From: Ectocarpus siliculosus
Lineage: Eukaryota; Sar; Phaeophyceae; Ectocarpales; Ectocarpaceae
Direction of reading: 5' to 3'
Assembly: GCA_000310025.1 (NCBI GenBank)
Contig: FN649736.1
Coordinates: 4,709,430-4,773,429 of the forward strand
DNA: 64,000 bases
This document shows, piece by piece, positions 7,301-55,854 of the stretch (positions within the stretch are counted from its first letter, which is position 1; the number at the start of each line of letters is the position of its first letter). Below the pieces are notes generated by a model. It searched no databases, was not told the origin of the DNA, and saw only the letters and a list, made by a program, of their open reading frames with translations. Position numbers and translations under genes: made by a program.

Positions 7301-7443
7301 GATAATTAGAAAACAACAACGGAAACAACAGCAACAACCACAAGTACCAGCAAGAACAACAACAACAATAAGAACATAATTTAGCTCTACCGGAAAACGT
7401 CGTCAGCTGGTCCTGCCAAAAATTAGACAACACCAACAACACC

Positions 7444-7476
<33 letters not shown>

Positions 7477-12360: not shown

Positions 12361-12790
12361 CTGAGCGCAGCAGAAGAGAGGTACGGGAAGGGGCGACGGA
12401 TAGGGGATCAATTATGTATCGTTCTCGAAAAAGATGGGGAGGGGGGTCGTGTCAAGCTCGACAGAAACAACGACTTGGACCGGGGTTAACTCCTATCATA
12501 GGTTTTCTCGAATGCCGCAGGTTCGGAGAATACAAACTTGCAACAGCGATTTAGTTACACGGAAAGAGAGCATTGTTATTTTTTTTGTGGCAAGAGACAT
12601 AGGCAAGCAAAGTCCAACACACAAAACGTGTTGGGGCACCATGCCTCAAGAGCTATACTGTTACGCATACACAATGGCTGAAGACAAGGAAGGCCAGGTG
12701 GTGCGATTGTCCCCCCGCCCCCCTCGTTCCACCCCCCCCCCCCTCCATCCCCCCTGTCACAACACATTTCATGGATCGAGAAATATCGAA
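12361..12790. other. Upstream flank or first intron of E2F; no exon recognised
   Basis: The E2F 5' exon should lie in or beyond this stretch, but I cannot pick it out. There is a C-rich tract near 12709-12760. Confidence 0.5.
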
Positions 12791-13010
12791 GTAGGTTGTA
12801 CTTCGGAAGTATAAGATACTACCCCCCCTGGACCGATTTTCAAAGCTTCATTTCTCTGGGACAAAAACAGCGACGGTGCCGAAAATGTCGGAGTTGGAAC
12901 AGTCTTTTTCGAGAGCCTTCCAAAAATGGATCATTTGGTTCTGGCACCGCCGTGGAGTCATCGAGCTTCGAAAATCGGCCACAGGGGGTGTGGTATATAG
13001 TGCAACCTAC
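12791..13010. mobile_element. MITE-like element, copy 2
   Basis: A 220-bp segment has inverted ends related to copy 1: the left begins GTAGGTTGTACTTCGGAAGT and reaches CCCCCCTGGACCGATTTTCA; the right reads GAAAATCGGCCACAGGGGGT through to GCAACCTAC. The central part also shares short blocks with 8451-8663. It lies upstream of the E2F coding exons. Confidence 0.82.
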
Positions 13011-15510: not shown

Positions 15511-15639
15511 TTCCAAAAACTACGCCCAAAAAGTTTGCCCGCACGCCGCCTACGCACGTTGAAGAAGATCGCGCAGCGATCCGCCGGACTCGGTGCTTTC
15601 GAGGGGACGTTCAGCGGAAAACCCAAAAGGATCGCGCAG
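15511..15639 (+). CDS. Candidate upstream exon of the giant gene
   Basis: The frame ends at a phase-0 donor, GCGCAG|GTGCTA. It codes a basic segment including LKKIAQRSAGLGAFEGTFSG and KPKRIAQ. It could splice to an acceptor GTTGGTCAG at 15882 and continue YNRTRIRRAKRLV in the frame of the next exon. No in-frame ATG is present, so yet another exon would lie upstream. The alternative is translation starting at the ATG at 15859, which is in the same frame. The left boundary is approximate. Confidence 0.4.
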
Positions 15640-15858
15640 GTGCTACTCCTTACCAGCTGCGCACAGGTGCGTGTGCGCACGGATCCCATCGTCAACCAGA
15701 GAGATAGGCGGGTTCGGGGCTCGCTGGATGGAGAAGAGACAACATGGGGGGGGTGGGGGGGGGTCGTGTGTGGCATACACACAATGCAATCCATCCACTG
15801 GCCAACGGCAGCAGGGCAGGTCCACCAGAGCGTCCCGGTGCCTTACTTGTGAATCGCA

Positions 15859-18260
15859 ATGGATGGGGCCGACGTTGGTCAGTACAACAGGACCAGGATC
15901 AGGCGCGCTAAGCGTCTGGTGGCGGATTTCTTCAGCAACCTCGATGCCTTGGCGAAAGAGGCCCCGAACGAAGCCGAACTGGTGCGAATGGATACGATCT
16001 TTCTAGCCGTGCAAGTAGGCCATGAGAGCACGCATGTACATCGTTCACTGACACGCGCGCACACGCGCCCTTGCGTGTCGAGTGGTACTGTTGTCACTGG
16101 CGTCATGTAAGGACGTCTCACAGCTGTATCGTACGCGAGTTTCGGGGGGGAATATATTCCTGCGAAAACTTTAATCTAACGGCGGTCAGACAGCAGTAGA
16201 TATAGTCTCGGTCCGACTACATACATACATACCAAGTACATACAAGTAAATAGTCTTCGTGTAGTCTACCGTGGATAGTACTAGTTCCTCGTAGACTGTA
16301 GAGCATAGGCAACTATGGTGGACTAATCGCAACTGTATACAACAACTGCAGCTTCTTGGCGACACAACAACCCATCTTCAATGTGTGATCGGAGACGAGG
16401 CCGTTAGCTTGGGCAAACAACCTGAGAATTGAGAACACACGCGGTATTTTCTGACCTCGTGTCGAGCCAACGCCGGCAAGACCACAACAGGTAATACTGG
16501 AACGCATACATGCATTGTGGTTTACCTTGAATAAATCACAACCTCGTTATTTCTGGAATAGACTACTGTATTGCAGTAGAATTTCTCGTCTTCCCGGATT
16601 CCTTCGACACATTGTCCAGTTGCATGGTCTACCCAGCTACCCAGCTGTTCTGTGTGATACAGAAATCGTGCTTGCGCAGCAGTCTCACTCTTCTTATTTT
16701 CGTTCAAACTGGGTAGGCTCGTTTGGAGCAGGAGCGCATTGCCGCCCTTGTTACAGGGCGGCGACAGCGAGAGGCAAAGCTGGTAGGGGAGTTCGACAGC
16801 GATGAGATCTATTACCCCGGCGACGAAGACGTGCTGTCCATGCGCCAGGCGCAGCGCGAATCTCGCCGTCGAATCAAGGCTCTCTGCGAAGGCCGGAAGC
16901 ACGCCGACTGCGTATCGCTCGTCACTGACGATCTCATCCGAGAGCTTCAAACCTATCTCACTAGGTGGGAACTTGTGTTTTGTTGAAGGCATTCCGTACA
17001 GCGCACGGTGTGGTGGCATACACAGCAGTGTACCGTATTTAAAATGCTTTTCCCGAGACCGGTACGGGCGTTTCCGCAAGTATGTCCGGGCTCCGTTTCT
17101 CTCCAAAGCTGGATGCCCCGTTGTCCTCTGCGAGCGAGTACCCGGCATGTACTGCTGCAAGCATGTGGTTCTTCCGAGCGGTGTACTTGTGACAAACTGA
17201 TTGTCCCGGCCAAACTTGCCCCTTGTGTGTGCTCACGTCAACACGTTAACCCAACCGTAGCTGCAGCATTTTTGTCGGCTTTTTGAAGCCTGGGCGGACT
17301 ATTGCGGAAGTCATGTGCCCATCATCGAGAGGCCAGCATGTCCAAGCCACCGTTCGAAGAGACGGAGACGTACAACGGCAAGACCCTGAAGCCAAACAAC
17401 AGGGTTTGACTGCTTCAATTGTGATGCAAAAACAACAGCAACAGCAGGTTGACAACGCTGATGTCACCTTTAAGGTTGGGGCGCTGGAGCAAGACGAAGA
17501 GCGTCCCTGGGAGCGTACGTCTACGGGTGACGGTCAACTACCCAACCCCGATACCGTTTTCAAGTGCGTCGACGTGGAGACAGCGGTTGTGGTCGGTTCG
17601 GCGGCAAACGAACGCGAGGAAAGGTTTGTGGGAGATGCGGGTGCCGCGAACGTGTCAACATCAACTGAGGCGGCAGTTGAGGAAATAGGAATAGAAGATA
17701 TTAACCCTAACAGTTGTGGGGCAGATCAAGACGAATGTGCTGCCTCAACCTCTTCCCTGCAAGAGGGAGATGCTAAGCGGGAACAAGCTTCGAAATCGAA
17801 GTCCTCCGTCGAAAGTTGTCCTTCTACTGACGATACAGGGTATGCAACGGGGGCTCAACGTACTGCATCAACGAACATCAAACATGATGCTGAGAGGTTG
17901 ACCGACGATAGCAAAGCAGAACTCGAGGAGCTCCAGACGAAGATTTCCCAAACAGGCGAAACGCAGCCGCTATCACCTCTACCTCCCGGCACAGCGGCGG
18001 CTTCTCGAAAACCTATTCCAGGTCCAGAATCTGAAGTTATCCGGCCGCAGGTCTGTGTACCTCTCGTAGGTGCTGGAGACAGTGGGTGCATAGGAATGGT
18101 GGGGGCGCAAGGGTTCACGACAGGGGCGTTGGTCGGTGATGATAGCTGGCAGGACTGGTTCATGCACCGGATGGAACCGCTAAACAGAGGCGAGAACCGA
18201 AACGTGAAAAGGCTGAAGCTCGTTCGGCCGAGAGGGCTGCTGGATATTGGAAAACTTGAG
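15859..18260 (+). CDS. Giant protein N-terminal region (residues about 1-465): charged helices and disordered linker
   Basis: The first two exons code charged, probably helical sequence (RIRRAKRLVADFFSNLDALA; then EQERIAALVTGRRQREAKLV). The third exon is a long acidic Ser/Thr/Glu/Gln-rich linker with a short Gln run (QKQQQQQ). No family recognised. The junction 16964/17267 joins LQTYLT to SIFVGFLKPGRT in phase 2. Confidence 0.65.
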
Positions 18261-21200
18261 GACTTGCCAACCGGGACCGCTGCTAAGGTGGTGTACGGGT
18301 CTGTGGAGAAGATATCGCGCAAGCGCGGCATGCCTGTGTATACAGTGAGGTAGGAGGAGGGAGGACATGAGCGTAGGACGAGGACGGGGCAATAGAGAAT
18401 TCGCTGACATGCCTAAGAAATGGTGAATCCATATGCAATGGCATCAGTGAAAGGGTGCGCTTTGGTAGGCGAATGGTGAACACCGGGGACAGTAAGAAGT
18501 GTGTGCCTCTCTCGTGTGCCCGCGATCTTACCTGGCCACAAAGGGGGGGAAGGGAAGCCTTGTACGGCAGTGGGGAACGGTGTTCCGGACGTGCCCAATA
18601 GCACAGAAGTAGGTTCGAAACACAGCACTTGTGCGTTTAGTTGGTTGGTTGACTTTGTGGGCGCACCCTGCCCGTAGCCCCCCTCGAAATTCTGCACTTC
18701 GAGCTTCGTTCAAACTCTGTTGACTACATCGCGACTCGCACATTCGCCTGGTATCGAACAACGGCGAGCATATCCTGTACGTGTGTTTGCGTTGTCTTCC
18801 AGCAGTGCCATCTGGAGCAAGACACGAACGTGATCGACTCACCTGATGCGTTTCACCAGGATCGCCATCCTCTAATCCTACGTGACATAGGCATTTGACA
18901 AGGAGTCGTGTGTGGCGAAGGATCACAGGCACAACCTAACATTCTGCCGCTGTCTACCCCTTGTTTGTTCCAACGCTACGCTTTCTAGGTGGGAAGACGG
19001 GCTTTTGCAGCTCAATGTCCCCAAGAAGTACATGCGCCAGGTAGTCGCTGAAGATGATGCAAGTGCGGGAAAGGGCGTCCCGCTTACCGCCGAGGTCGTG
19101 GAACACCTGACGTGGATCGGAAAAACCGTGGGGCCTGTGCTGGATGAGGTCAGGAAGGCGATTCATCTGACTGATCTGGCAAAGGTGAGGCCATCTAACA
19201 CGTGACGTGCGCTACTGAAATAGTGAAACCGAGCAATGTTTCGAAAACAGGGCGACAGAGAGCAAACAGAATATTTCGGGAGGTCGAGTTGAACAAAGCT
19301 GTGAGGGGCGGATAGTCGCTGTTACGTCACCTACCTGTATCCCATTGGTTCTCCTCATTTTTCTCCGTGGTACAACGGACGGGGCAGAAACGCAAGGGTA
19401 TCAATCGTTCTCCCGCTTCAACTTCCTACATTGTCTCTGCAGGTAACCGTGGCCGGGGACACCCGGTCCCGAGACGTTCTAGAACTAGCGTTGCTATCGC
19501 TCGTCGAGTGCCTGCCGTCCATCGACTTCGCGGAAGTGTGGCAGTTGGACAACGACGGCAGTATTCGCTGCGTCCAGGGCCTGATCGCCACGGCAGGCGA
19601 AGGAGGTCGAAAGTATTACCGTTCCAACGAGCGCGTCGACAGCCTCCTGCATGGTGAGGATGCCGAAGAGTTTAGCTTGAAGATGGAGCCCGAGGCTATC
19701 CCGGACGCCGCCATCAGGGGCACGGGAGACGAAACCACACCGCCAAAGACGAACAGTTACGGAAAACAAAAGAAGAGAAAACACAGTGCAGCCAAGCCCA
19801 ACCACGCCGTGCACATTCCGAAGGGTCTCGTCATTCGGCCGAAGATGACGTGCGGGATACTAGCAGCAGCGCCGTTTCGCGACTACAGTTTCAAGGTGGG
19901 AAGATCCTGGATCGGTGCAGATAGGCTAGCGCGCGGCTTTGCGCTTGTCCTTCGGACTAAGGTGCCGAACAATGGGCGCGCCAATGGCGCGGTGGTAAAG
20001 GATGGTAGCAAGTGCGTGGGCCGAGCAAGTGACCATACTAGATCCCCTGAACGGAGCGGTGGCTGGAGTAAAGCCGGAGGTCCTGCCGCAACAATGGCAC
20101 AGCATGATGGACTTCCAAACAGCAGCAGAAATGGGAGTGTCGAAGATGGTGCCTTCGCAGCACGCGTTGCCAGCGAAGTGGGCGTTGCGCTGGCCTGCGT
20201 GCGAGGTAGAGAACGGCGGGCGGCGATTCGGGCGCAGGCGCTCAAGAAACTATCGAACGTGTGCCTGAACGGCAAGCCTTCCGGAAACGAGGCCAAGGAA
20301 GCCGTCCTAACCGAGATTTCCAAGGTGCTCCCGGGATGCCGCGCGTACGTCGGTGTGCTTCAATCGGGTGGACACGCCTTGCTCTACGAGGCGGCCACCC
20401 CCAATAGCGCGATGAAGGGGAGAGAGCTACGTCGGGGCGAAGGCATCGGCCTAAGCTGCCTGGATGATCCCAATGGAGAGATCCGTGTGATACAGCACCG
20501 CGAAGGCACCGCGTCCGGGATGGACGCGGGCGCCCCGGAGCCAGTCAGCCTCCAGGAAGCCGCGAAGGAAGGGGGGTCGAAACCGCCGAACTTTCGTGTG
20601 GGTGACGTCGTTGAGGTGTGGTATGCCTCGTCGTGGCTTCCCGCAACGGTCGTGCGGGCATGGGGGCACCAGTGCTACGACGTGAGGTACGAACAGTTCA
20701 GGGAGACAGAGGCGGGAGTACCGGGGTGGCGGATGCGAGAGGTGATAACCCTGGAACACCTCGACGTGAAGCTTTGCTGGGAAGGATCATCGGAACAGGA
20801 TGGGAGCCACGATGCAGACGAAGACATCCGTGCCAGTGATCACAGCAGCAAGGCGTGGCCGTGGCCGTTCGTGTGCGCACCCCTCCGAAGCGCGGGGAAC
20901 CGGGTCGGGGTGCTGGGGGTAGACGGGTGGAGTGACGTGGAGCTGGGACGACCAGACGAGGTTCACCCGGAGAAATCGGTGGTGAAGTTTATACACGAAG
21001 CCGCAAACTTGCTCGCCGACGCCCTCTACACGGAGCGGCGAAACAGAGGCCTGTCTGCACTGGGGAAGGCACTCAGAGAGCAAGACACAACACAGAATGG
21101 CGCGCTGGAGGCACTCCTTGTGCTGCTGCGAGAGACCATCACGTTTCGCACGCGAATAGACGTGCTCGAGACTCGTGGTTCTGACCCAGGAGCCGTGTAC

Positions 21201-24200
21201 TGCCGTGGGACGTGGCAGGAGAGCTCCTCCGAGAAAGAAAGGGGGACGGGGTTAGGGCAGCGGGACCGAAGGCCACAAGCCCCAGCGCGCGTGTTCGATG
21301 TAGGCGTTGCCCCTCGTGTGGAGGAGCTGTGCCTCACACCCGCTCAATACATGCGGTTGAGCAATCATGATAACCGGGGTGGCGGGGGACCCTTGTCTTC
21401 TCATAAGCAGACTCAGCAGTCCCTTTTCCTTAAAGAGATCACCCCCTACCAAAGGGAAATGCATTGCATCGCGAGAGACGGCCTGGGCGCCACAAGCGGC
21501 CTGCAAGCCAAAGCGCTTACCACACCCGGTCGACGAGGAGAAATTGTCGGTCGATTCCAACGTCTGTTAGTTAGAGCCGGGGGAGGCCGGCCGTCCGCCG
21601 ACGGCTGGTACTTCATTCGAGTGGCTCGGACCCTGCCAGAAGACATACCGCTAGAACCATCCGACACGACGAAGAAGATCAAATCGAAACCGAAAGCTAC
21701 CAAGGCGCGAGGAGTATCTACTGCCAACAATCCGGCCGTAAGCTCCGAGGATGGTGACATATGGCTGCTGTCCGAGATGTGCCGTAAACTTGAGATTGGG
21801 TTTATGGCCATGGCGAGCCGAGAACAACGTGCGCTGGTCCGCGTAAAGGCTATGGATAGGGTTCTCAACTGTTGCAAAGGTTTCAAGGTCGCTGCTGCTG
21901 CGGCGCCGTCACCGACGGCCTCCAAGAATGCAGTCGCTGATGACCACTCGAGGGACAGGACGGCAAGAACTGATGCATCGTCAGCGATGGTCCGTACCGG
22001 TGGAGGTAGCAAACCAGCAACAGGCGCCCTCGATGGGCCAGGCACTAAGAGGGGAGCCCTGGCAACGGTAGACACACCAAAACGCAAGACGGGGCAAAGG
22101 GCTTCAAAACGGAGTGGAAAACCAGGCACACGCGACAAAAAGGACGTTGACAGTCCTACGTCGGCTACTATTGCGATGGCGACGGAGGAGACGGGGGATT
22201 CATCAAGCCCCAGGGTATCTGCTGCTGTGGCGGTGGCGACCGGAGACGAGACAAAGACGAGCAAGAGGGCCGCCCAACACCTGATGTTCTCGACACCGGT
22301 GCAGGCGGCAACCCCGGCCGAGACTGTCGACGGGCGGAAAGGAGCGCTGGTAACGCTGAAAGACGGCAGGCTTGCGGTTCTAGTTCACCAGGGAGACAAG
22401 AGGGTGGCGGTGGTCGAGCAGCCAGGAGGGAGGCAACATACTTTGCCAGAGAGTGAGGCAAGTCGAACAAAGCTAAACATGTGGTCTGCATGTCTAACAC
22501 GGTGGTCGAGCGTCTTCACAGAAAAAGCAACCACGATGTATCCACTTGGCGGATTTTTTCCGTTCATGTCAGCTTTGGCGGTGGGTACGCCTATAAAGTG
22601 GGTTTGGCGAGCAGGTTGAGCTGGCAATAGACCATCCCAGAAGTTAACAAGTAACACCTCCCTAATTGTCAATCTACTGTTCGTTTGCAGCAACAAAAAG
22701 CTGTAGCTCCCACCCAAGGCGTTTGGCAATATTGCTTCGCCGTGCTTGGCCGTATGCATAGTTGGATCGATAACTTGCCAAGCCCAATCTGTATTCCAGT
22801 GCAGACGCCCGCCTCGTCTCAGTTAATATTGCTCCGACACGAACGATCAAAACTTTATTATCTCGGATATGGCCATATCCTCAGGCGGGACTAGAGATCG
22901 CGTCCAATGCCTCAATCCAATCTTGCCTGACCTCGGCTCACCTGGCCTGCGGGTTGATTTACTGTCGGGTGGTTCGTTACAGGTGGTTCCAGGACAAACG
23001 GTATTCCTGCAAAGCGGCCGAGAAGCCCTGCTGGTAGAAACTACCGACAACTCGAACGCTCTGTTGGTGGTCAGCACGAGTGGGAAGGCAAACATAGTGG
23101 AAGAAACTGGCACAGGGAAACTTTCAAAGCTGCCGTTGTCGGTGCTCAAGGATCTGGACGCCGTCGCTGCTCTCGCAGCAGGAGAAGGGCCGCCGGGGGC
23201 AATTAACGGAGCTGAGCTAATTAGACAGGTGGGAGGGCGATTGACTGACCACCTAGAAAAACGTACGCTTCGGTTCGAGTCTTGGCCACAGAGTATCATG
23301 CTCAACGTACGTTGGTTGGATATGAAGGTGGCCGTTTCGTTTCGGGTTCGGTGTGCCTTTAGGGGGGGACATACCTCTCGCACAATTCCGTAACATTTTG
23401 ATAAGGAGATACGGCGCTTTCTCAATCTTATCCGTAGCTCAGCATCCCATGATTTTGTCCAGCACAACGGCAAGTCGATCGTGTTGTCTTAACGCACTTT
23501 GGGCGCCCCTAACCTTTCGTTTGTCGAATACCGACACTACGATAATGAGCGCAACACAACAACACCGCACACACGGTATCTCCGGTAGGCGCGTAAGACC
23601 GCGAGCTCCCCCCCGTTGTCTCTCGGTGCTTCGCCCGGCAGTACCTCTATACCAACGCTCTTGCTATGTTTTGAGTTTCTTGAAGCACGACTATCCCGAA
23701 ACCTTCCATCGCCCTTTGTTGCCTCATCACACACCCCCGGTAAAAACACCGACGACGACGACGATGGGCACGACAAGGTCATCGCCTCCACGCAGTGGGT
23801 GATGCCCCAGGTGGACATTTACGTCGGCGAGCTCTCGCCGTTCGGGAGCTCGGTTAGGTTCGCGACAGCCAGCCCGCGCTCCAACGCTTCGGGTCGACTC
23901 ATTCACAGACATTCCAAGCCCAACGGAGGCCCGACGTTTGGCGTGGTGGAGGACTCCGGCGCACAAGAAGATTCTCAGGACGTAGAAAAGGACGAAGTGC
24001 AGGTACAACCGGCACTGAAGTAGAATGTAGAACGTGATCAGCGGCCGCCAAAAGAGGATCGTCTGCGGGTTTGCCTCCAAGAGTCAAGCCGTCTTTTGCT
24101 ACGTCCTTTCCCAAACCTACCTCAGCAGGACCGATACGAAGTGTCCTAACGCCAGCAGGATTTGCGCAACGCCGCAAGTCAACCCCTCCGGTCGAGCACA

Positions 24201-29917: not shown

Positions 29918-29961
<44 letters not shown>

Positions 29962-44900: not shown

Positions 44901-47900
44901 GCCCGTGCGGGCCATCCACTCAGTGGCTGTTAGAATTTCTACGACAACGGGAGAGAGAGGCGTGGGCAGGGACAGCATCATTGGCGCTGGAAACAAGGGC
45001 AGCAACAGCAATGCCTTCCGAACGGCACCTTTTTATGTGAAGCAGCTGAGCACGACGACCTGCTCTCCGCAGTGGTACGAGGGCCACCGCCGCCTCCACG
45101 TCACCAACAGCATTTCCAGCCTGCGGGCCGAGATTCTTGCCAAGGTTAACCTCGGCAGCAGGGGCAAGGGCGGAACTACAATGGGCAACGAGAGGAGGGG
45201 GCAGCAACAACAACTACAAGCGCCACCGGCGGAGGGGGTGACGCCTACCGGGAGGGGGGTCGGAGGAGCGGCGGAATTAGCAGCGAACAGTGAGATTGTC
45301 CTGGCCTACGCCTCGGTCGATATCAACGCTGTTAGAGACGGATACAACTACGTTCAACTGTTTTCATCGGGGCATCGAGATGATGATATGGATGATGGTG
45401 GGGGTTCTTCGACGAGGAGAGCGGGTGAGGAAGCGGGTGAAACGGGAGTAACACTACTGTTATTTGTAGTCGTTGCCTGGTGACCGACGCGTTCCTCGTT
45501 CGAGCGCAACACTTCGTCCGTCTAGCCGGCGGTAACGGTAGCCACCTGCGATCGTCACGGTGTTGGACGTGCCATGCATTGCACGAATGTTTTTATTCCA
45601 AACGCGCACTAAAACACAACAACTGTCTCGTTGCGGGGCGGGGGATAACCATCGCCATTAACCACATGGCGAAGAGAGTGGTTCTGAAACCGATGGGCAG
45701 GGAACAGATGAAGAAAAAGACGCGACAACGGTAAAATCAGCCCGTCCCATGGGACAGCTTGTTCTCCACTTGGATTGGGTAGAGCCCGGTGAAGGTGGAG
45801 GCTCCAAGGAGGAACTCGGTTGGGGCCGAGGTTACACAACACTGGTCATTCATGGGGCGTCTGGCCTAGCAAAAGCCGATCGGTGAGTTTCACATAAAGA
45901 AGGAGAGCGCGATCGAGGTTTCCTCGGTTGCTTTGGTTCAAGTCATGCCACTCAGCTCTAGGCGCGTGCCTGGTCCTTCACGGTTTGCCTCGCAGCACTG
46001 CCACACTCTGCCAGCTCGACAATATATTCCGTTCGCACAAACACTTAGTTGCAAACTATGGAATGGCACAACTTATCAACGACAGACATTGAGAACATGC
46101 GTCGAAACGCCTCCCCGTCCCTCGACAAAACCTAAAAGCCTCGGCGACTCGGATCCATACTGCGTCGTCAAGTGGGGAGGGGTCGAGCTGGGGCGCACGA
46201 AAACCTGCCCAAACACACGCGAGCCGAAATGGGGCGATGAGAGGTTTCGACTTGCTCTGCCAGCCGAAGAACCCAACGACAAAAAGAAGCATCTGCCGCT
46301 AATTTTGGAGGTTTGGGACGAAGACATGCCGGGGACTAAAGGCGATTTCTTGGGGCAGGTGATTCTAAACCCCACCACCGTGCCCTGCCTTGGTAACCTC
46401 ACCCTTTCCCAGTGGTGTCGGTAGCCTGACGCAAACCATGGGAAACAGCCATGTGACTTCAGCAGAAAGCAGCCTTCGTTCACTGAATGGTGCAGATTCC
46501 GGCGCCTCCGTATTACGCCGCAACGATGCTCGATAGTCGATCCAAAGCAAACATGTGACGTAGTGTGTATGAAAACTTCCTCAATGCCATCGAAGCACTG
46601 TTGAAAGACATAGGACTGGACTACCCAACGGCGAACGCAGTGTCTAGATTTGCTTTTTATGTGAATCTTGTTGCGACATCGGCTACTTTTCAACCGTAGC
46701 GGCCCGGGGCCCTTAGCCGCGACAAGCAAGAAAAACAACTGGCGTCGACAACCCGCAAGGGACGTAGAGCAAGTACCTCGAGGCGCTCGTCCGGAGCCCG
46801 CCTTTACCTCGTCGAATGTTAGAGGTTTGGTTCTTAACAAACGTGTTCCAACTTTTGGCGTTGAATCCTGTGGTCGTGAAGGTTGTCCTGCAAGCCAACA
46901 AGTTGGAAGACCCGGCCCCGGGACCCCGAGGGATCGTGCTGTCGAGAAAACCCGCGGCCGAGCTGAAGCTTTCCAAGCAGAAGCTCGTGCAAGGGATGGT
47001 GGAGTTCTCCTTAGAAACCTCGCGCGCCGCAGCCGCTGCCGCCGCCGCCGCCATCGCAGAAAGCGGTGGTACTACTGCGCTCTCGGAAACCGTCAAGGGC
47101 AACACGTCAAAAGCGTCCGCAACGGACAGAGTTCAAGCCGGCAAAGGAGGGGCTGCGTCTTTCGCTGGTGGGGCTTGTAGGAAGGCGGAGAACGGCAGCG
47201 ACGGCAAGGCGACGACGGGAACACCTGCCTGGCGGGACAACAACAAGGGCGCAGAGACGGGAAATTTTGCTGAAGGAGGAACAAACGCCGCGGTAGCTGC
47301 TAAGGGGCCCAAGGGCCAGCAACAACAACATGCGGCGTCTGCTGCTGCGGCGGCGGCCACCGAGAAACCTGTCGCCGAGCAGCGGTTGACGACCGAGTGG
47401 GAAGGGGTCACGTGGGACGAAGACGACATGCCCGAGGCCAAGAGCTTGGGCACGGTCAGCGTGGGCATGACGACCGTTAGTAGCGCCAGCCTGGGCACTG
47501 CCGGCAGCATCACCCTCGGCACCGTGGAACTGGCCTCTAAGGACGGGGACATGGCGCACGCTGGGCTTTCAGACGCAGTGCCCCAAGACCTTCTGGTTAG
47601 CTTGAAGGAGGTTGTTGGCGTAAGAGAGGTAAAGTCCACTCTTGTAGTACCAATGAATACTACCGTAGTACCTCGGAAATGACCATACAGGCTCTTCCCG
47701 ACATTTCAAGGGCGATATAGACTTGCTAAGCAGGCCAACTGAAACAAGCAGAGCGCAAACTCTGGCTTTACCTATCCGTGTTGTTGGTATTTTCGGTGCC
47801 TCGACACGTGGTCGGAGAACGCGTCAAGCTTCTCGTGATTTGTTGACATTTAGTGTGTAGTGTTCAATGGCGTACGAGACGACATTAAATCGATATTCTC

Positions 47901-50900
47901 GTGCGTCGACAACAACTGCTCCTGCTTGGCTCCTGCTTGCTTCCAGGCCCACAAGTTTGGAGACTCAAAATATTTCTGCGTACTTGAAGTGGGGCAGCGC
48001 GAGGTGGACAGAACCCGCCAAGTGAAGCGTAACCCGGAGTTGGTATGGGAAGCGCCCGAGGAACGATTCCGCGTGGCGATCGAAGACATCAAGGGAGCAA
48101 AGCCCGCTCCGAACAGTGTAGGCTTTGTCAACACAACCAATGCCACGGGTGCTGCCACTCCCGCTGGTGAGCGAGACCCGCCATCACTGGCTACGGCAAG
48201 GCACGGCGAGCAAGTGACACGGTTGTTCGCGGAGGCTGGGGGTGATGGTGAGGGAGCCGGCGACGCAACCTTGGGCGCGGACCTAGACGGCGGCGCTCCT
48301 GTGTCCGTGTTGAGCATCCCGGCTTCGGCCTTGCGCCGGCATAGCCAGCAACCACATCACGGGCAGGAGGTGGCGGCGGGCGCTTCCTCCCTTACCATAA
48401 GCGTATGGAGCAAGGGGACGGTGATGGGAGGGCGCAGGGATGTCCTCGTGGGCACTGCGACGGTGCCCACGCGGTACATCGACCACCCTCCAGGGGACGC
48501 CTGGATTCCCCTCGCCGCAGGAGGGGATAGCCGCGAAGATGGGCAGGCGGGGGGCAAGGCCGAACACAAGGTCGGAGGCGGTGGACGTGCGGAGGATGCA
48601 GCAGCCGTTGGGACCGAATCCAAGAACCCTGACGCCACTCCCGCTCCTGCCGGTGGAACCACCACCGTGAGTGCAAAACCGGGGGGAAGAAGTCCATGGG
48701 GCATTGGGCTGTTCAAGAAAGGAAGGGGTGCACGAAAGCGGGGGGGGGACACCGGTTCGGGCCAGCATCGGACACTAAGCTCGAGTTCGGTTCACGTCTG
48801 GCTTGGAAAGGCCCGCAGGGGCAGCACTAGCGGCCAGCAGCCTGGGGAGGGATACGCGATACTTCGGATACACTCTGCGTCGGGACTGCGAAAGGTATGG
48901 GTCTGTGTTTGTCAACACTGGCACATGGGACGAACGGTACTGTAATATATGGACATCGTTTCGTGAACGGTAGCAGAAAAATGGTGTACTACTGCCACAG
49001 CAGTGGATTCCATGGACGAAGCGGTCAACTCACGGCCTCTGGCGAAGTTCCTCTGCTCCCGTACACAGTCCACGGAATAGATCCGGGGCATGTCCAAATG
49101 AACGCCTTCCGTGGTCCCTGTAACCCCCTGTGCGTTGCCTACAGACCGGCGAAGGGAACCGCCAGAGATAACCACTAGCTTTGTAGGGTATGGTTCTAAC
49201 CAGTGCAACAATTGATAACATTGGCCCACAAGAGAGACGCCCGAATTCCGGGTGAGCCTTTCAACACCGACTATCGCTGAAAAGCCATCGTTATATGCTT
49301 GGATATAGTTTGGACTATACAGGGCAGTGCGGCGCTGCTTGTTGCGGCGCGACTTGGAAGCAATACTTCGAAACATCAGGTATAACCGGTAGAGAGTGGT
49401 GGGCCTCAACCTTGGCTGTACCTTGTTTGTGTGAGCTCCCCACCCATACATGCAAACATTGCTCAACAAGCCCAGGCCGATCGATACGGAAGTTCCGATC
49501 CGAAGTGCTTCATCGTCTGGAATGGTGAAAAGGCCGGATCGACGTCCACGGTGTACGATCAAAGTGACCCTTGCTGGGACCGCGAAAAGGAGGCTTTCAC
49601 GCTCCGCCTTCCCCGGGACCGGAGCTTGTGCCAGTTGCACGTTGACATCTGGGACATGGATTGCGCAGGCACCAAACGAGGGTGAGTTGACAACAACGCC
49701 GCCCCCGTCGTTACAGAACTCTCGCTTATAGAGTTCTCGCCGGGTGAGGGAGAGGAAGCTCAGCTGAGGTATGCGACAGCGAAATGACCACATGAGTTGT
49801 GCCAACCTTGGCAGTCTTATATTTTCTACCGACCCCGCTACACGTCGTGTCTACGAACGACATGGGTACCGTTTTTCAGTTCGTAGACCGTGAGTGTTCA
49901 ACAAATGTGTCGCAAAAAGCGAGAGACAACGTGAACCGTGGCGGTATCGTCTGATAATACTTTCCCCCTCCTCTCTCGCAACCTAACCTGACGCAAACAC
50001 AGCGACTTTCTTGGGCGGGCTATCATACCTACTGTGGCAGTCCTCCATCCGCGACCTGGAGGGGTGGAAACCCCGATTACCCTGCCGCTGCTCCCTCTCA
50101 ACGGCCCAGCAGATCCTTCAAACGCCGACAGGGAAAGAGTGATGGAAAGGGGCGGCACCGAGGCGGCAATTGTCAACCCCGCCGCCGCCGCTGTTGATGC
50201 TGGTCCCGCCGGGTTAAAAGCCACCAGCAGTGGCGGTGCTCTGAGCCCCGCCGCAGGGGTACCTAGCACACACCGCGACACCCGCCATGGTAGGGGGGCA
50301 GGAACGGCGGGGGGGTTCGCGAGCAGGATGATGCACAGCGTCCAAAAGCACCTCCAGATAGACGACACTATCACCGGGACGCTGACCGTATCGCTAGAAC
50401 TCTTTCAATACAGCGATCAAGAAGGGGGACTGGCGCTCGGCGGAGGCGTGCGTCAGCCGGGGGCACCGCGGGCGCGCGCTGGGTACGCGGCGTCGAAGTT
50501 CAAGGTGGCTGAGGATGCCCACGAGGCGAGGAGAAGGAGAGAGAGGGAGGGCATCCACGTGCCGCGGATGCTGTCCAGGGTGCAGGCTCTGCACGACAAG
50601 CTGGAAGGTGTGATATTGGTAGTGCGATATGGTGTAGTGGCCAGGGGGCCGAGTGTTTCTGCTCCGATATCACTGGTACAAAATATTCGAACGAGCAGCA
50701 TCCAGCGCTCAATATTGAGTTTCTCCCGTCCTGAAGTCCACAAAGCCTGATTGATTCCCGTGTTTTCCTGATATCATTTGCTGTCCGGCATAGACTATGA
50801 CCAACGCTTGTTGCGTCCATTGAATTAGGTTCCGTGATCACGGGACCGGCGGCGGCCAGGTTTTCGGATATGACAAATGGAGCTGCGGCAATTATCCCCG

Positions 50901-53900
50901 AGGTCCTCGCAGGACAGGTCCTCAGTCTTGCCCGCAGGGCAGGCGGAGCGGGGGGGCACACTGTGATGGCCGCTAGCGGCAGTGACGACCTGGCTCGGGA
51001 CCGACTCGTCGTGCTGCTCCAACCCATCCCCACAGACAGGATACACAGTGACGGTAGTGTTGGTGGTGGTGAGGTGGGTGATAGTGTTTCGCGGTCTGGC
51101 AATCAAGAAGCCGCTGGGGAGGAAACTGCGGGGAGGAGGGAGCGGCTGCGTCACGAGAAAGACAGTGCTGACGTCGTGGTCCGAGGGGCGGATGAACGAC
51201 CGAGGCATGTCATCGTCATCCCTTGTCTGCCGGGCCAGGTGTGAGAAAAGAGCTTCGCCAACGGGCTGAATTGGCTTGTGACTTCAAGTCGATATGACTG
51301 AGACTTCTTACTGCGAGCGTAGGTGGTAGTGCGGTACGCAAGAGTTCGGCAAGGTCTGTCAACGATGCAAAAGTAGCCAACCGTGTAAATGGCAACAGTA
51401 GCCTTATCCGCTTCCATCTATGCCACGAAACAAACATCGTGCGAGACAAAGCTAAATCGGTCTAACGCTTGTAGAGAAATGTGAGACATTGCCGGAAAGA
51501 AGTCTCAAAGAATAAAACCGAGATGCTCCAGTTTGCACAACCTTTCCTGCTGATGAGTCTGCCATTGTACCGCTGTCTGCGTTCGAATCAACAGATAAGC
51601 AAGGAGGATGTCGCTGTTGCGTTGGAACTGGCTAGAGCGGCGGACGAGGCTTGCAGTGTCGTTCACAAGCGGCGATCGCGGCAGTACTTGATGAATCGCT
51701 GCGCCGAAAGCGTCGAAACGCTTTGCCTCAAGAGAAAACAACACCACGAAGGTTGATTTGGAGAAGAGGGTCAACTAAAATCATGTCTTTGTTTCTGGTA
51801 CACGTATTTTTTTAGATGTTGCGTGAGAGGGAGGCTGTGTGTGACGCGTGCCGGAAGTTCACAACATCCTTCGCGAGTGTCCAGCGTCCAGCCAATTTCA
51901 CCTTGAAATTTTGGCTCCTGCTCTTGTAAAAACGCCCCGTCCACCTATGGGCGTTTGGTGACATACCACATCGACTCTCCGCGGCAGGTCGGGTTAGGCG
52001 TTTGCATCCCCAAGTAGTTGATGCGATACACAATGCTCGTCAATTCCACACACCCTCCGTCTTCCCAAGTCGACATTGTTGTTCTTGCAACTGATATTCT
52101 CTCATACTCCAACCCCCACACCTAACGCAGGCCTCTTCAGCGATGTGGTGTCAACGCTGAATCCCGCCTGTAGCGGGGCCGGACCGGAGGTCGATGGCCC
52201 TCTACGGGACATGCCGGTAGCTGTGTTCCTCCTTTCCAGTGGAGGATACCGCCTGAATGAGGTGGCGTCATCGGCCGGGTGGAGCGACGGGCACGCCTTC
52301 AACCAATGTTCGGCGGCGATCAGCGCGAGCGGCGGAGCTGGGGCCCGGTTTGTCACTTCGGCCGGCGATTTGGAGGTGTGTGGGCAATATTCGATCTGCG
52401 GTACAACCTATAAAATGCTATTCACGTAGCCTTTCAATATCCTTTTAATTTCCAGCCGAAGAGCTTGTTCGCGTGAGTTGATGTAGGTGTAGACCTACGA
52501 ACATTCCGGGCAAGGAGGCGACAAACCTACCAGACGTTGTGCAGTTGATGGTCAAGTGTGTACGATTTGCACAAAGGTCGTCCGCGGGTATGCGTGTCGC
52601 CCGTGACTCGTTCCTACTAATTGTTGTTGCACCAAAATTCAGTCTGTCGGGCGGTGGTCCGGGCCTCTGCCGATGGCGAGCGGGCTGGTCAAGCGCGCTG
52701 TAGAACGAGGCGATATTTTCCTCGTCATCGAAAGCACCGTCTACGTTGCCAACGTCTCGTGGAGCAGCATCTTGCAAGAGGTAAAGTGCAGCCGTACCTT
52801 GGTTGACACTCGAGTGTGGGCGGCGGGATCAGGCACGGGGATGGTGTTTCTTCCTCTTCGGCGTGTGTTAGCACGACAACTGTCGCATTGAATCAATCTA
52901 TGTAGGCTTAACGCTTGCTCAGATATCTGGTATCGTGGAAGTAACTGACTGCGGTTAGCCAGCAGAGGGTCGAGGTCGGGTGCCACCCTCGTGTTGGTGT
53001 CTGTCTCACACGCATCATGTCTACCGAACTTCTGTTGTTTGTGTTAAGTACTTCGGCTGTCACTGAGTAATGATATCGATCAATCCGAAACCACCCTTTA
53101 TCGATTTCAACATCATCAACATCGACCTCACCTTTCGATTAACTGACTCCCTTCCTGTGTTTTTGTTTTTCGACCTCATCGAACTCGAAACACATCCTGA
53201 TGTCTTAGTACACGCTTCCACCTCCTTCCCCTGGTTATGTGCTTCCCTCGACTCGAACATTCACAACGGAGCCAGACAATGCCGCACAAGCACGTTTCGT
53301 CCAGTACCGCACTCGAGACGTCGGTGGCCCTGCTCCGTGAAGCCATTGGCCCAAAGACTGCCAACGCCTTCGTGCTTGCCCCATTATGGGCCCACGGCGT
53401 CGGCTCCATTGGTCTCATTACGATTGCCGACGTACCGTACGCGAAACAGTCGCCTGTAACCCGGCGTGGCGGCGGCGGCGGTCGACAAATCAATCACGGC
53501 CATCGGGTAGGTTCTACAAGGCGACCGGAGAAGTATACTGCTGGGCACGGTGCCTCACACGAAGACACGCCAACATTTGGAGAAGTGGGAAGAGGGCAGC
53601 GCGTTCGCTACACGGTCGGCGCGGGCGTCGTTGACTTCGCAAGAAGGGTCGGTGTGGCCCTGGGCACCGCCGCGTTTCAGCTCCGGAACCAAGGCTTAGT
53701 TACGAGAATCAGGGTGGAAGGGGGTGGGTATAGTAGATACACCAGTCCCGGCGAAGGCCGTGGGGGAAAAAATCGATCTCGGTTGGGTTCTCCTCGTTCC
53801 CCGGTACGGCCGTCACCTCCACGGGTGGGTGGGCAGCAGGAAACCAGCATACGAGGGACATCCACCGTGCCAGGGACCAGGTGTGCACATGTATTTATAT

Positions 53901-55854
53901 GTACGTAGTAAGCAGAACTAACAACAGCAGTGGTGGGCAACACGAAAGGATCAGCAAGATGAGGTGGTCGAGGCTTCGTGATCACGCCCTCACACGGAGT
54001 CCGATAGTCATATCCCCGCCGTCTGTTGCTCCGCTAAGAGTGTTGTCGACCTGTTGGGTCCGAAGTTGCGCCTGGTCTAACCGACCGACATCTTTCGGAC
54101 ACCGGTAGCACGATACGTATGAGCCTCTGGCGGTATGCTTTGAGCCCGAGCAGCTTGAAGAGGGTTCAACGATGAAAACGTTTGTTCATGAGTAGTAGCA
54201 GGGGGGGGGCGATTTGAGTGGTTTCAAGAGCTGAGAAATAAGTTCTCACGGTTGACAGAAGAATGTTGTGATGGTGGCCCACGTTACCCGGGCGGAGTCA
54301 CCGGCATGTTCTGACGCCGCCGCTTCCACCCCAGCAGGAGCGTGAAAAGGACAACGAATATCCCGATTGGAGACAGCAACAATCGCGGACAGTTCTCGTC
54401 ACCGCCCAGAAGTATACGTCGGCCGGAATTAGACGAAGTCCGTTTGTCGAGCTGGGGCTCGCTTGACATGACATCCATTCTCCGTTGGCCTTGCCCCTAC
54501 GAGGTAACATATTGGGTTGAGTTTCAACCGCAACAGGACTAACAGGGGCGAAAAATGCGTGATTTAGCTTAAAAGATGGCGGACAACCTCCTTCGTGTGT
54601 GCAGTCTGTGGATATCGATGAAAAGTGTGGGCATCACCAACGGTTGTTGCTCGTTACTGAACAACCACATGGTTGTCTGTTCTGCTGCGGGGGATGCCCC
54701 TGCCCCCTCCTAGTTTTTCCTAAGTTTTCAGTTTTGAAAGGCTTTCGACAACGAGCATACCTGTGAACCCCCCCGATCAGCATCGATGAACAATCTGAGT
54801 CGTTCTTTCGATCGCGTTTCATGGCGTCCTCGTTCCTGTTTCGTTTTGCGACATCAACCAGGCGGTCTGCAAAATCTATTCGGCCGCCGTCAAGGCGCTC
54901 ACCGAGGGCTTGCCCTGGGTTCGCGCCGCGGACGTGTGGCACGTCTCTTCGATCCCCGACCACAAAAAAGTCTTCGAGCCCGAACCACCTCCTCCACCAA
55001 TAAAGACTCGGAAGGACAACAACGACGTAGCCGTCGACGACGAAGCCAGCATCGTCGACGGCAGCAACACAGTAGACGGAGACATGGGCAGCATCGGTTC
55101 GTTAACCGTAGACTCTGGTGGCCCTGCCGGGCACGGTGGAGACATCCGCGTCGGGGCCTACTTCTGCGAGCGGATCGTCGGGAAGACGTGGTCGGGTGCG
55201 CCCGCCGTGATTCTTCGGTCTCTGCGGGTACCGGGCAGGGACGAGGCGGCGTGCGCCGCCCGATGGCTGCGCGAAAATGGCGAGGGTGGCGGAGGCGTGT
55301 TTGGAGACGACGACGGCTGGACCGACCAGCGCCTCCGGTTGTTGGCGGACGAATGGACAGCGTGTACGTCGGCTGGCGGCATGCCCGACTACGGGTTGGC
55401 CAGCGGCGGGGGGGGCGGTCCCGGATTCCGGTCCCGAGACATCGCTGCCACCACCGCCCCCGCCACCGTAGGGAGCGGGACCTCCGGCACCGCCGCCGTC
55501 GCGGGGTCCGACACCGCAGCGACACTATCATCGCCGCTACCCCTCGTGTTATTGCCTCGAGCAACGCCGCGGCCATTTATGCTTCACACCGGTCACGTCA
55601 TCGTCCCCTTTCTTAATGGGCGCGTGCGGGAGACCGAGAAGAGGGGTCCCAACGTGGTCATCGGGCACGGAGTGGTTCTCGCCGTCGATCGCGGGGTAGA
55701 CTGGCGGTGTTGGGAGTCCCACCTCACGGAGACCGCCGCGGTGGCTACGCGATGCTTCGAGCGCTTGGAGCGCGAAGGGGAGAGTGTAGAGAGAGAACGG
55801 GTCAACGATTGGGCGGAGAAACTCCTCAATCGGAACACAGCTGGTCCGAAGTAG
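15859..55854 (+). CDS. Giant multi-C2, GAF-like domain protein (about 55 exons, about 6,470 aa)
   Basis: Exons: 15859-16014, 16717-16964, 17267-18349, 18989-19184, 19443-22452, 22993-23228, 23778-24002, 24337-24518, 24751-25129, 25683-25792, 26031-26502, 26868-27020, 27725-27820, 28169-28372, 28653-28788, 29139-29332, 29753-29878, 30279-30356, 30704-30805, 31290-31460, 31766-31873, 32103-32264, 32620-32685, 33242-33367, 33883-34105, 34274-34452, 34567-34680, 34844-34954, 35311-35436, 35740-35925, 36138-36226, 36390-36504, 36924-37004, 37396-38138, 38624-38711, 39042-39131, 39509-39628, 39963-40334, 40702-40934, 41353-43737, 44017-44131, 44423-44633, 44867-45424, 45741-45882, 46139-46358, 46882-47628, 47947-48894, 49476-49681, 50003-50607, 50829-51238, 51595-51751, 52131-52375, 52643-52780, 53276-53713, 54862-55854. 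Every junction is GT-AG and phase-compatible, leaving a single open frame to the TAG at 55852. The protein has GAF-like modules at the start, middle and end and 14 C2 units. About half the C2 units keep the Asp-rich Ca2+ loops. The likely role is a large Ca2+/lipid-responsive scaffold or sensor; this is inferred from domains only. No transmembrane segment or catalytic domain was recognised. Least certain: the 5' end and the boundaries at 22452/22993, 34680, 45424 and 53713. A split into two or more genes is possible but not required. Confidence 0.75.
18260..19184 (+). CDS. SH3/Tudor-like beta module split by an intron
   Basis: Exon end VVYGSVEKISRKRGMPVYTV joins RWEDGLLQLNVPKKYM after a 639-bp intron. 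The run V-x-Y-T-V-R-W-E-D-G with a following Leu-rich strand resembles Tudor/SH3-like barrels (compare Y-x-V-R-W-D-D-G). The rest of exon 18989-19184 is a helix (HLTWIGKTVGPVLDEVRKAI) leading into the first GAF-like domain. Confidence 0.55.
19443..21060 (+). CDS. Tandem GAF-like pair, the second with an inserted SH3/Tudor-like domain
   Basis: The first unit runs from LALLSLVECLPSIDFAEVWQ to a terminal half KVGRSWIGADRLARGFALVL and a long helix. The second unit begins AVLTEISKVLPGCRAYVGVL and QSGGHALLYEAAT, then RELRRGEGIGLSCLDD. It is interrupted at about 20577-20780 by a barrel-like insert (FRVGDVVEVWYASSWLPATV, CYDVRYE), and resumes WPFVCAPLRSAGNRVGVLGV, ending in a helix (KSVVKFIHEAANLLADALY). 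The beta-sheet plus terminal helix pattern is GAF-like. The family call rests on pattern only. Confidence 0.6.
21061..23228 (+). CDS. Third GAF-like stretch, disordered linker and paired small beta modules
   Basis: It opens with helix LSALGKALREQDTTQ and strands (RIDVLETRGSDPGAVYCRG; GWYFIRVARTLPEDIPL) and a closing helix DIWLLSEMCRKLEIGFMAMA. A Lys/Ala/Thr-rich disordered region follows. Then come two related beta modules, GALVTLKDGRLAVLVHQGDK at about 22342 and QTVFLQSGREALLVETTDNS after the intron 22453-22992. The splice 22452 to 22993 is in phase. A competing acceptor at 22983 would need a different donor. Confidence 0.5.
23778..24960 (+). CDS. GAF-like domain
   Basis: Three exons read IASTQWVMPQVDIYVGELSP, SSVRFATASPRSNASGRLIH, then SWDVIDNCTTAVIPG, QGWPWVAVPIRPSTSSRAVR and GVFCVDRFEDPWADEETV. 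They end in the helix HPEKDVLAYLETCASELGLA. This is the same plan as 20215-21060, with W-P-x-V-x-x-P, G-V-x-x-V-D and a terminal helix. An acidic linker follows. Confidence 0.6.
24961..25792 (+). CDS. Partial GAF-like segment leading into the C2 array
   Basis: The helix AQDVYAAVATSMSQALVHCT and strand RFEVWEATQPCDEEGRFFL begin another domain of the same sort. It stops after about 60 residues and passes, through a phase-2 junction (25792/26031), directly into the first C2 unit. It may be a truncated domain copy. Confidence 0.45.
26031..27020 (+). CDS. C2 unit 1 (Ca2+-loop residues present)
   Basis: LKLQITHCMGLTKADRFGLS then DPLCIVKWPR gives the first strand and the D...D loop. The insert includes a run of Gly and Ser, then VQVWDEDGGVAADFLGEVKL supplies the second Asp loop. 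Exon 26868-27020 completes the last strand with VQGSIGLCL. Confidence 0.88.
27725..28788 (+). CDS. C2 unit 2 (degenerate)
   Basis: VTIEGSFGLRRGDGACVFAI, the exon PNGFDPVWMETVRIEIARDR, and FSIIVWNRVQ...CEFVGRLDLS follow the C2 plan. The SDP and WDED loop residues are missing, so Ca2+ binding is unlikely. Confidence 0.72.
29292..31460 (+). CDS. C2 unit 3 (Ca2+-loop residues present)
   Basis: VRLTVLRATGLAQ|ADDSGGADPMCV, REVGRTTTIYGSLDPVWG, VVLEVFDEDFGDPSDFLGQ|V and QGDLFYKLEG are carried on five exons. The intron after exon 29753-29878 begins with a (GT)n microsatellite. Confidence 0.85.
29919..29959. repeat. (GT)n microsatellite
   Basis: About twenty GT units begin roughly 40 bases after the donor of the exon ending at 29878. 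Confidence 0.97.
30927..30963. repeat. 18-bp direct repeat, two copies
   Basis: GCCAAGCTATAGGTCGAC occurs twice in a row inside the intron between exons 30704-30805 and 31290-31460. Confidence 0.9.
31766..33367 (+). CDS. C2 unit 4 (Ca2+-loop residues present)
   Basis: RLEIRVMEAGGLAKADRFGL, SDPYVVIRANGQTQ|LGHTRT, LTLEVWDEDDLGQGNFLGQ|V and ELVQGVLTFSIRE. This is one of the best-preserved C2 copies, on four exons. Both Asp loops are intact. Confidence 0.92.
33883..34680 (+). CDS. C2 unit 5 (Ca2+-loop residues present)
   Basis: VMLTILSAKGLAKADVFGKS, DPFGMVLLNRREIGRTRTLF, VIVQLWDEDLG|KRGDFLGQAS and ELVQGTVQLLVE. The exon 34567-34680 that follows ends at a weak donor (CAA|GTCATC), so its right edge is the least certain of this group. 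Confidence 0.88.
34844..35925 (+). CDS. C2 unit 6 (Ca2+-loop residues present)
   Basis: YAVTVDRAWGLGKADRFGKA, DPIVSIK, GRTHSIAGTLQPVWRNPPEV, VWDVDFHKKSDFLGEVRLSK and RLVQGSLRFTCQ, on three exons. Confidence 0.9.
36138..37580 (+). CDS. C2 unit 7 (second Asp loop lost)
   Basis: VKLFVVSASGLPRG|HHFGVS, DPLACVRWNGLEVGRTRVIK, SPAWDEGFQ, IEVVVEILDASAGGS and GLIGHVVLGESTLRLP. The WDED loop is replaced by LDASAGG. Confidence 0.78.
37981..39628 (+). CDS. C2 unit 8 (degenerate)
   Basis: MQIKVYNAWGLSSGARALDV, TTSPEWIDEHFILPLEMCAE, LYFDVWGRKMGNQDAFLGR| and VKGHLLFSLNPWHDF, spread over four exons. The Ca2+ residues are mostly replaced. The intron 38139-38623 contains a partial copy of the exon end. Confidence 0.78.
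39963..40860 (+). CDS. C2 unit 9 (degenerate)
   Basis: VQVRLVGATNLTSPSASVFA, GTELSKTEVVPARSDLR, TEIEIDLWEEGGPEKEYGDH, LGQ|VILTGDFVPH and SLSFQLWLRR. Loop acids are largely absent. Confidence 0.72.
40861..41970 (+). CDS. C2 unit 10 (degenerate)
   Basis: SALTVEVLAAKGLPPPSGR, VKEDEVEIGRTQTSV, FAVTLSPRHGGGLPLELTVE, LWETS and the final strand SKIVLRVTPQ. The loop residues are not conserved and the insert is long and acidic. Confidence 0.68.
42130..44131 (+). CDS. Central GAF-like pair with acidic linker and inserted IQ motif
   Basis: The first unit reads DVLELVFASVPACCPRAPSL, then KVWIGPKIAARHALVAHRPE and the helix RIRARDMRAEQRRMTLS-like segment. An acidic run ([17 protein letters not shown]) follows. 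The second unit starts VLRALEIALPGVSIYLGLLE, QSSMAGKQLKRGEGISFSCV. It is interrupted near 43140-43550 by a linker carrying an IQ motif (IQKLFRGKLGRDR, about 43411-43449), then resumes WPFVCVPLEGFLRSSSIGVM. The exon 44017-44131 supplies the helix. The IQ motif is a likely calmodulin/Ca2+ sensor binding site. Confidence 0.65.
44595..45810 (+). CDS. C2 unit 11 (degenerate)
   Basis: QLKVEVTAAELSPAMADYYE, APFYVKQLSTTTCSPQWYEG, RAEILAKVNLGS, VLAYASVDINAVRDGYNYVQ and PMGQLVLHLDW. The splice 45424 to 45741 is phase 1; an alternative donor 12 bases later is also in phase. Confidence 0.6.
45811..47020 (+). CDS. C2 unit 12 (Ca2+-loop residues present)
   Basis: YTTLVIHGASGLAKADR|LGD, SDPYCVVKWGGVELGRTKTC, LPLILEVWDEDMPGTKGDFL, GQ|VVLQANKLE and LVQGMVEFSLET. 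An alanine run from GCC repeats follows the last strand. Confidence 0.92.
47590..48520 (+). CDS. C2 unit 13 (degenerate)
   Basis: VSLKEVVGVRE|AHKFGDSKY, FCVLEVGQREVDRTRQVKRN, SSLTISVWSKGTVMGGRRDV and LVGTATVPTRYIDHP. Positions of the Ca2+-binding acids are mostly replaced (K and S). Confidence 0.75.
48840..50430 (+). CDS. C2 unit 14 (Ca2+-loop residues present)
   Basis: YAILRIHSASGLRK|ADRYGS, SDPKCFIVWNGEKAGSTSTV, LHVDIWDMDCAGTKR|GDFLG, RAIIP and TGTLTVSLELF, over three exons. Confidence 0.9.
50431..55854 (+). CDS. Giant protein C-terminal region (residues about 5,617-6,468): GAF-like modules
   Basis: Helix RVQALHDKLEG leads to repeated strand-rich segments: DMPVAVFLLSSGGYRLNEVA, RGDIFLVIESTVYVANVSWS, NAFVLAPLWAHGVGSIGLIT and VIVPFLNGRVRETEKRGPNV. 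Helices that often close GAF domains follow (VVDFARRVGVALGTAAFQL; TAAVATRCFERLERE). Exon 53276-53713 ends at AGG|GTGGAA, inferred from phase, and joins AVCKIYSAAVKALTEGLPWV. The last exon contains Pro, Gly and Thr-rich linkers and ends NRNTAGPK and TAG. Confidence 0.6.

Follow-up and report, generated by a model that had tools for sequence, protein, structure and literature searches.

A predicted 40-kb gene of Ectocarpus siliculosus for a giant protein with C2 arrays set among GAF-like modules

Does a 40-kb stretch of the genome of the brown alga Ectocarpus siliculosus hold one gene for a single giant protein of C2 and GAF-like modules, and how are these modules arranged? The window analysed here is the whole stretch of 64,000 nucleotides at positions 4,709,430 to 4,773,429 of the forward strand of contig FN649736.1 (assembly GCA_000310025.1); coordinates are counted from its first nucleotide, and features lie on the plus strand unless stated otherwise. 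C2 units are numbered C2-1 to C2-14 and proposed GAF-like modules G1 to G12. We give somewhat better than an even chance to the following reading: the window contains one giant gene, of which no second copy was found in the genome, and its product joins a chain of GAF-like modules to one array of ten and another of three, perhaps four, C2 units, acting as a Ca2+-triggered tether or scaffold.

The gene model comes from a coding/splice HMM, seeded with the long open reading frames of the window and then iterated, and from curation by hand. It extends from an ATG at 15859 to a TAG at 55854 in 55 exons with one stop, and the predicted product has 6,597 residues (~707 kDa, pI 6.2) in place of the approximately 6,470 of the preliminary description. 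In all rounds, with or without a bonus for C2 matches, the HMM merged everything up to 55854 into a single large plus-strand gene (one bonus round additionally called two small genes elsewhere); this agrees with the single 40-kb gene first proposed, and that it is one gene remains a prediction. The final HMM, run without the bonus and with parameters trained on the giant gene itself, scored the plus strand at 1379 nats, the minus strand at 181 nats and five dinucleotide shuffles at 0 to 5 nats. Wherever a C2 domain required it and the splice sites were compatible, hand curation added the exon 39042-39131 and shifted several boundaries, including 30246, 32264, 32620 and 34954; exon 55 was extended upstream to 54862. 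The 54 introns (median 352.5 bp) comprise 53 GT-AG and one GC-AG, so that the chain of 55 phase-consistent exons with a single stop stands as first described, save for that one junction. For 53 of the 55 exons, the coding score computed with that exon left out is positive and higher in the modelled frame than in the others; this test is not fully independent, because the same type of model guided the choice of exons. Both exons that fail it belong to C2-8, where exons 38624-38711 and 39042-39131 were placed by domain homology.

The 5' end of the HMM models lay at 10346 (12249 or 10481 in early rounds). The exons called between 10346 and 15752, mostly weak, were dropped from the giant gene because an E2F family gene is encoded there on the minus strand; the ATG at 15859, directly preceded by an in-frame stop, is the natural start of the giant gene and the one chosen in the preliminary description. 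The E2F gene (5619-15689, core 12360-6062, minus strand) lies head to head with the giant gene and is identified by the Pfam domains E2F_TDP (E 3.5e-13) and E2F_CC-MB (E 6.7e-24); a 100-base assembly gap (9075-9174) falls within its span, and its outer exons are uncertain. On the other side, an exon of phosphoglycerate kinase (PF00162, E 3.9e-11) lies at 62078-62806 on the minus strand. Rfam gave zero matches in the window.

The model could also be a prediction artefact that merges two or more neighbouring genes, such as one with GAF modules, one with ten C2 units and one of GAF/C2/GAF make-up; we consider this unlikely. The HMM settings are biased toward long genes and carried the gene too far upstream, into the E2F locus, and the junction between exons 10 and 11, which lies between G6 and C2-1, is weak (5.2 nats). 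Against such a fusion, a forced split of the gene lowers the score at every one of the 54 junctions, with margins of 4.6 to more than 100 nats that leave out priors and intron lengths and charge a fixed large penalty at junctions without a usable start. The smallest margins are found at the junctions of exons 33/34 (4.6 nats), 10/11 and 25/26 (6.9 nats); the first of these is spanned by C2-8 and the last by C2-5, and at junction 10/11 the available start, at 26056, would remove the first strand of C2-1. Altogether 34 of the 54 junctions fall within the domain spans as drawn, including one in the unsupported C2-11 and two in the weak G12.

Exons 5 and 39 are the two longest and match each other; no other meaningful match to either was found at E ≤0.01 in the alga's own genome (189 Mb, 492 contigs), where exon 55 matched only itself. 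One match of exon 39, at C1:2981652 (E 0.0019), reflects an acidic run and was rejected as a relative. Relatives of the GAF exon were not found in the viral contigs or prokaryote genomes searched.

Ten of the 14 proposed C2 units exceed the Pfam C2 cut-off of 22 bits, and all ten are also recovered by an internal profile, built for each test from the confident units minus the tested one and compared with 500 shuffles per unit. Eight of them belong to the first array: C2-1 (25788..26951), C2-2 (27003..29185, over the cut-off only after trimming, at 25.8 bits), C2-3 (29288..31349), C2-4 (31763..33319), C2-5 (33365..34449), C2-6 (34865..35925), C2-7 (36177..37695) and C2-8 (37981..39571). The array closes with two degenerate units that have no Pfam C2 match, C2-9 (39620..40845; 17.8 bits with the internal profile, 0/500 shuffles as high) and C2-10 (40873..41977; 24.7 bits, 0/500). 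The second array contains C2-12 (45824..47025) and C2-14 (48847..50414), both over the Pfam cut-off, and between them C2-13 (47578..48840), which falls just under it at 21.5 bits and is recovered by the internal profile. Its proposed first member, C2-11 (44576..45399), has no Pfam match, and 82 of 500 shuffles reach its internal-profile score. Thus 13 of the 14 units first proposed score above all of their own shuffles, and C2-11 is unsupported. Searched by itself, C2-4 matches C2 domains in the PDB, namely those of synaptotagmin-1, NEDD4, PKC, otoferlin, dysferlin and MCTP2.

The units differ in the five acidic Ca2+ ligands of C2 loops 1 and 3, at the positions that we take these residues to occupy. 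As read from the alignment, all five are kept in C2-1, C2-3, C2-6, C2-12 and C2-14, four in C2-4 and C2-5, and fewer in the remaining seven units; the set is lost or incomplete in C2-7 to C2-10 and in C2-13 (incomplete in C2-7, lost in C2-8 and C2-13). Intron sites recur as well: one immediately precedes the AD of KAD..G.SDP, or the corresponding place, in C2-3, C2-7, C2-13 and C2-14, and another after [FH]LG[QR] in C2-4, C2-8, C2-9 and C2-12. Such a pattern is expected from tandem duplication of intron-bearing units. The shared boundary in C2-8 came from a bonus run; the others were already present in the homology-free HMM. The lost ligands of C2-7 to C2-10 and C2-13, together with a C2-11 that is no longer recognisable, are what would be seen if the giant gene were decaying or unexpressed, a relic. 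We hold this to be highly improbable, as one exon of 3,015 bp and another of 2,470 bp remain open, coding scores hold in all but two exons and the model requires no frameshift.

Internal profile searches with shuffled controls divide the GAF-like parts into two types, a and b. Type b comprises G1, which follows the N-terminal region (together 15859..18143), G3 with an N-terminal linker helix (20142..21047), G5 (23772..24516) and G8 with an acidic and IQ-like insert (42521..43762), which is also supported by the match between exons 5 and 39. Mutual matches join the N-halves of G3, G5 and G8, and likewise the C-halves of all four; the C-halves of G1 and G5 match at one decoy match per 60 proteins and, according to the direction of the search, at 0 to 9 of 100 decoys. 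For instance, the C-half of G1 (PQVCVPLVG..IGMVG) matches that of G8 at one decoy match per 60 proteins, with 0/100 decoys as query and 1/100 in reverse. The linker helix before G3 matches the helices before G8 and after G4 (0/100 decoys). For the possible module G4 (21060..21887), the repeat searches support this C-terminal linker helix only (21786-21875), its N part being at chance level (93/100), as are G11 (51/100) and the C-half of G12 (18/100).

Type a is made up of the N-halves of G2, G6, G9 and G12 and the C-halves of G2 and G7. Both halves are present in G2 (19452..19973; N-half 19452-19607, C-half 19845-19973), whereas G6 (25049..25709), immediately ahead of the first C2 array, and G9 (44096..44491), before the second, are N-halves, and G7 (42284..42406), after the ten-unit array, is a C-half. 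With the type a profile, G6 and G12 are found at one decoy match per 60 proteins. Single-sequence tests used 18 queries against 100 decoy proteins, a number of queries at which lone matches at 1/100 decoys carry little weight. In these tests the C-halves of G2 and G7 are reciprocal best matches (0/100 decoys; a longer query including the linker reaches G7 only at 3/100), and so are the N-halves of G6 and G9 (0/100 in both directions). The N-half of G2 matches that of G9 at 0/100 in one direction and 3/100 in the other, and that of G12 at 0/100 and 1/100, the latter tested before the extension of exon 55, since when the G12 sequence has partly changed; used as query, it did not find the N-half of G6 (91/100). 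In the C-terminal tail (50607..55851), which may hold G10 to G12, repeat support is confined to the N-half of G12 (54862-54960). The rest of the tail is not clearly above decoys, and a type a C-half after the second C2 array, in G10, was not clearly found (8/100).

The resulting layout is G1b-G2a-G3b-G4-G5b-G6aN-[C2 x10]-G7aC-G8b-G9aN-[C2 x3 or 4]-tail. The order first described, a GAF-like cluster, ten C2 units, a GAF-like pair, four C2 units and a tail, is therefore mapped as claimed, apart from the unsupported unit at the head of the four, and it hides a recurring pattern of two GAF-like types around the C2 arrays. A type a N-half stands before each array, with the matching C-half after the ten-unit one, and the sequence of type b, type a N-half and C2 array occurs twice. 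Type a halves on both sides of the ten-unit array argue for one polypeptide, and both observations speak against a fusion of adjacent genes. The simplest reading of these repeats would be that a C2 array grew within a type a module and that a block was later duplicated. The lack of a clear type a C-half behind the second array speaks against it.

A more specific form of this reading holds that the ten-unit array is nested in one GAF-like module, whose N-half is G6 and whose C-half is G7, and that Ca2+-dependent docking of the array mechanically gates the pocket of that module. Docking on a membrane would put the host module under tension or open it, and the helical linkers would pass the coupling to the next modules, giving a Ca2+-gated GAF chain. 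The second array begins after the same type of N-half as the first. A short stretch before G7 beginning DVLEL was considered as a separate N-half and is at chance level (20 decoy matches in 60 shuffled proteins; 12/100); were it a real N-half, the nested arrangement would be weakened. We regard such nesting and gating as a tentative idea with a low probability.

Whether the repeated modules have a GAF fold is a separate question. In Pfam, no module exceeds a GAF cut-off wherever scanned. The best score, that of G3, is 12.6 bits trimmed and 12.7 bits untrimmed, against cut-offs of 22.4 and 28.6 (PF01590 and PF13185). NCBIfam gives no GAF match for the modules, genome-wide searches with PF13185 and PF01590 do not return the giant-gene locus, and a type b profile searched against PDB sequences finds no GAF. 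These results would suit one gene whose non-C2 modules belong to some other alpha/beta repeat, confined to this protein, which would then simply be a tandem-C2 membrane tether. The trimmed G3 points in the other direction: among 24,736 Pfam models its sole matches are two GAF models (E 0.16 and 0.2). Aligned with bacterial GAF domains by hhalign, the match is colinear and beats 60 of 60 column shuffles, at a probability of only 2.4%. An AlphaFold2 model of G3 has a mean pLDDT of 52 (an earlier one of exon 5, 814 residues with two alignment rows, reached 32.8 and was unusable), and most of the 50 Foldseek matches listed for it bear GAF domains, judged by title or recall; the best has an E of 0.0045 and none falls below 0.001. 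The small hhalign probability, the low pLDDT values and the modest Foldseek E values count in favour of another repeat. We propose a GAF-like fold, at low confidence, for G3 only, and consider a different fold for the modules unlikely. The preliminary description had spoken of several GAF-like modules and named a non-GAF structure as the result that would overturn it: several are indeed supported as repeats, G3 also by its low-confidence model, which did not yield that result, and none passes Pfam.

An Agenet/Tudor-like insert in G3 (20592..20762) matches Pfam Agenet at E 2.6e-4 and 21.8 bits, below the cut-off of 27. The stretch after G1 (18264..19046) looks Tudor-like by visual impression only, and no Pfam model exceeds its cut-off there (the best of the weak matches is DUF1918, E 0.0072). 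The IQ motif first attributed to the GAF-like pair is reduced to a weak IQ-like motif in G8 (43391-43453), which scores 12.9 bits where the PF00612 cut-off is 20.3 (E 0.097). Hydropathy over 19 residues peaks at 1.63-1.65 at three sites that lie within or next to GAF-like modules, and gives no clear transmembrane segment; the protein is probably soluble.

Under the reading that we favour, GAF-like modules strung together by long helices would carry the two C2 arrays. The approximately seven units with complete or nearly complete acidic ligands would bind Ca2+ and, upon a rise in Ca2+, dock the protein on acidic membranes, while the degenerate units may provide spacing or protein contacts. For the GAF-like modules, pairing or the binding of a partner or small ligand is conceivable, and the helices could relay their state along the chain; the whole would be a membrane tether or scaffold triggered by Ca2+. 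We have moderate confidence only in this mechanism of Ca2+ docking with GAF pairing or ligand sensing, which is drawn by analogy. A scaffold of C2 and GAF-like modules fits the earlier proposal of a Ca2+/ligand-responsive scaffold, and we infer rather than observe the response itself.

The domains are known, and we did not find a description of their arrangement: literature searches by full text, with Ectocarpus C2-domain papers judged by title, returned no such C2 and GAF architecture, in keeping with the earlier remark that no described protein with this order was known to its author. What appears to be new here is the two-type GAF-like repeat and a ten-unit C2 array lying between a type a N-half and C-half, as if inserted. 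To our knowledge, the protein, if real, would be among the larger non-repetitive scaffolds; it would unite Ca2+/lipid-binding arrays with sensor-type modules in one polypeptide and offer a case of an array of domains that expanded within a different domain.

Other C2 and GAF loci occur in the same genome. A second giant C2 gene is predicted on the minus strand (G000:C10, ~2,900,483-2,944,028; loci L009-L013), with 56 exons and ~6,270 residues in an uncurated model that is possibly cut at its low end. It resembles the gene described here in its C2 units of the G.SDP...WNG.EVGRT style and differs in having IQ motifs and two WW domains; pieces of the GAF-like parts gave no BLAST match to it at E 0.001. 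Together, the two predicted genes, if real, suggest that the alga uses giant C2 scaffolds, which would be a testable part of its Ca2+ signalling. A predicted protein of ~1,040 residues with two tandem C2 domains (G000:C16:990121-994256, minus strand; loci L018 and L004) has, by eye, a zinc-finger-like N-terminus. Seven of the ten PF01590 matches listed elsewhere in the genome exceed the cut-off (loci L030-L036), and two of these presumably resemble phytochromes.

Compared with known systems, the giant protein shares features with two groups. The G3 model matches tandem-GAF signalling proteins (PDE2A, cyanobacterial adenylyl cyclase, phytochromes) weakly (1ykd, E 0.19; 3ibj, E 0.20), and in both cases modules are linked by long helices. 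Unlike these proteins, the modules described here have long inserts and sequences below the GAF cut-offs, and no catalytic domain was found among the protein pieces scanned with Pfam. Chain I of the Chlamydomonas radial spoke head and neck (7jrj), which we take to bear a GAF domain, is a general fold match to the G3 model only. The other group consists of the ferlins, MCTPs and extended synaptotagmins, tandem-C2 membrane tethers. The giant protein differs from them in having no clear membrane anchor and, among the pieces scanned with Pfam, no Fer/DysF or SMP domain. As in these tethers, its C2 units stand in a row and some keep the full set of Ca2+ ligands; unlike them, it has 13 units in two arrays and adds GAF-like modules.
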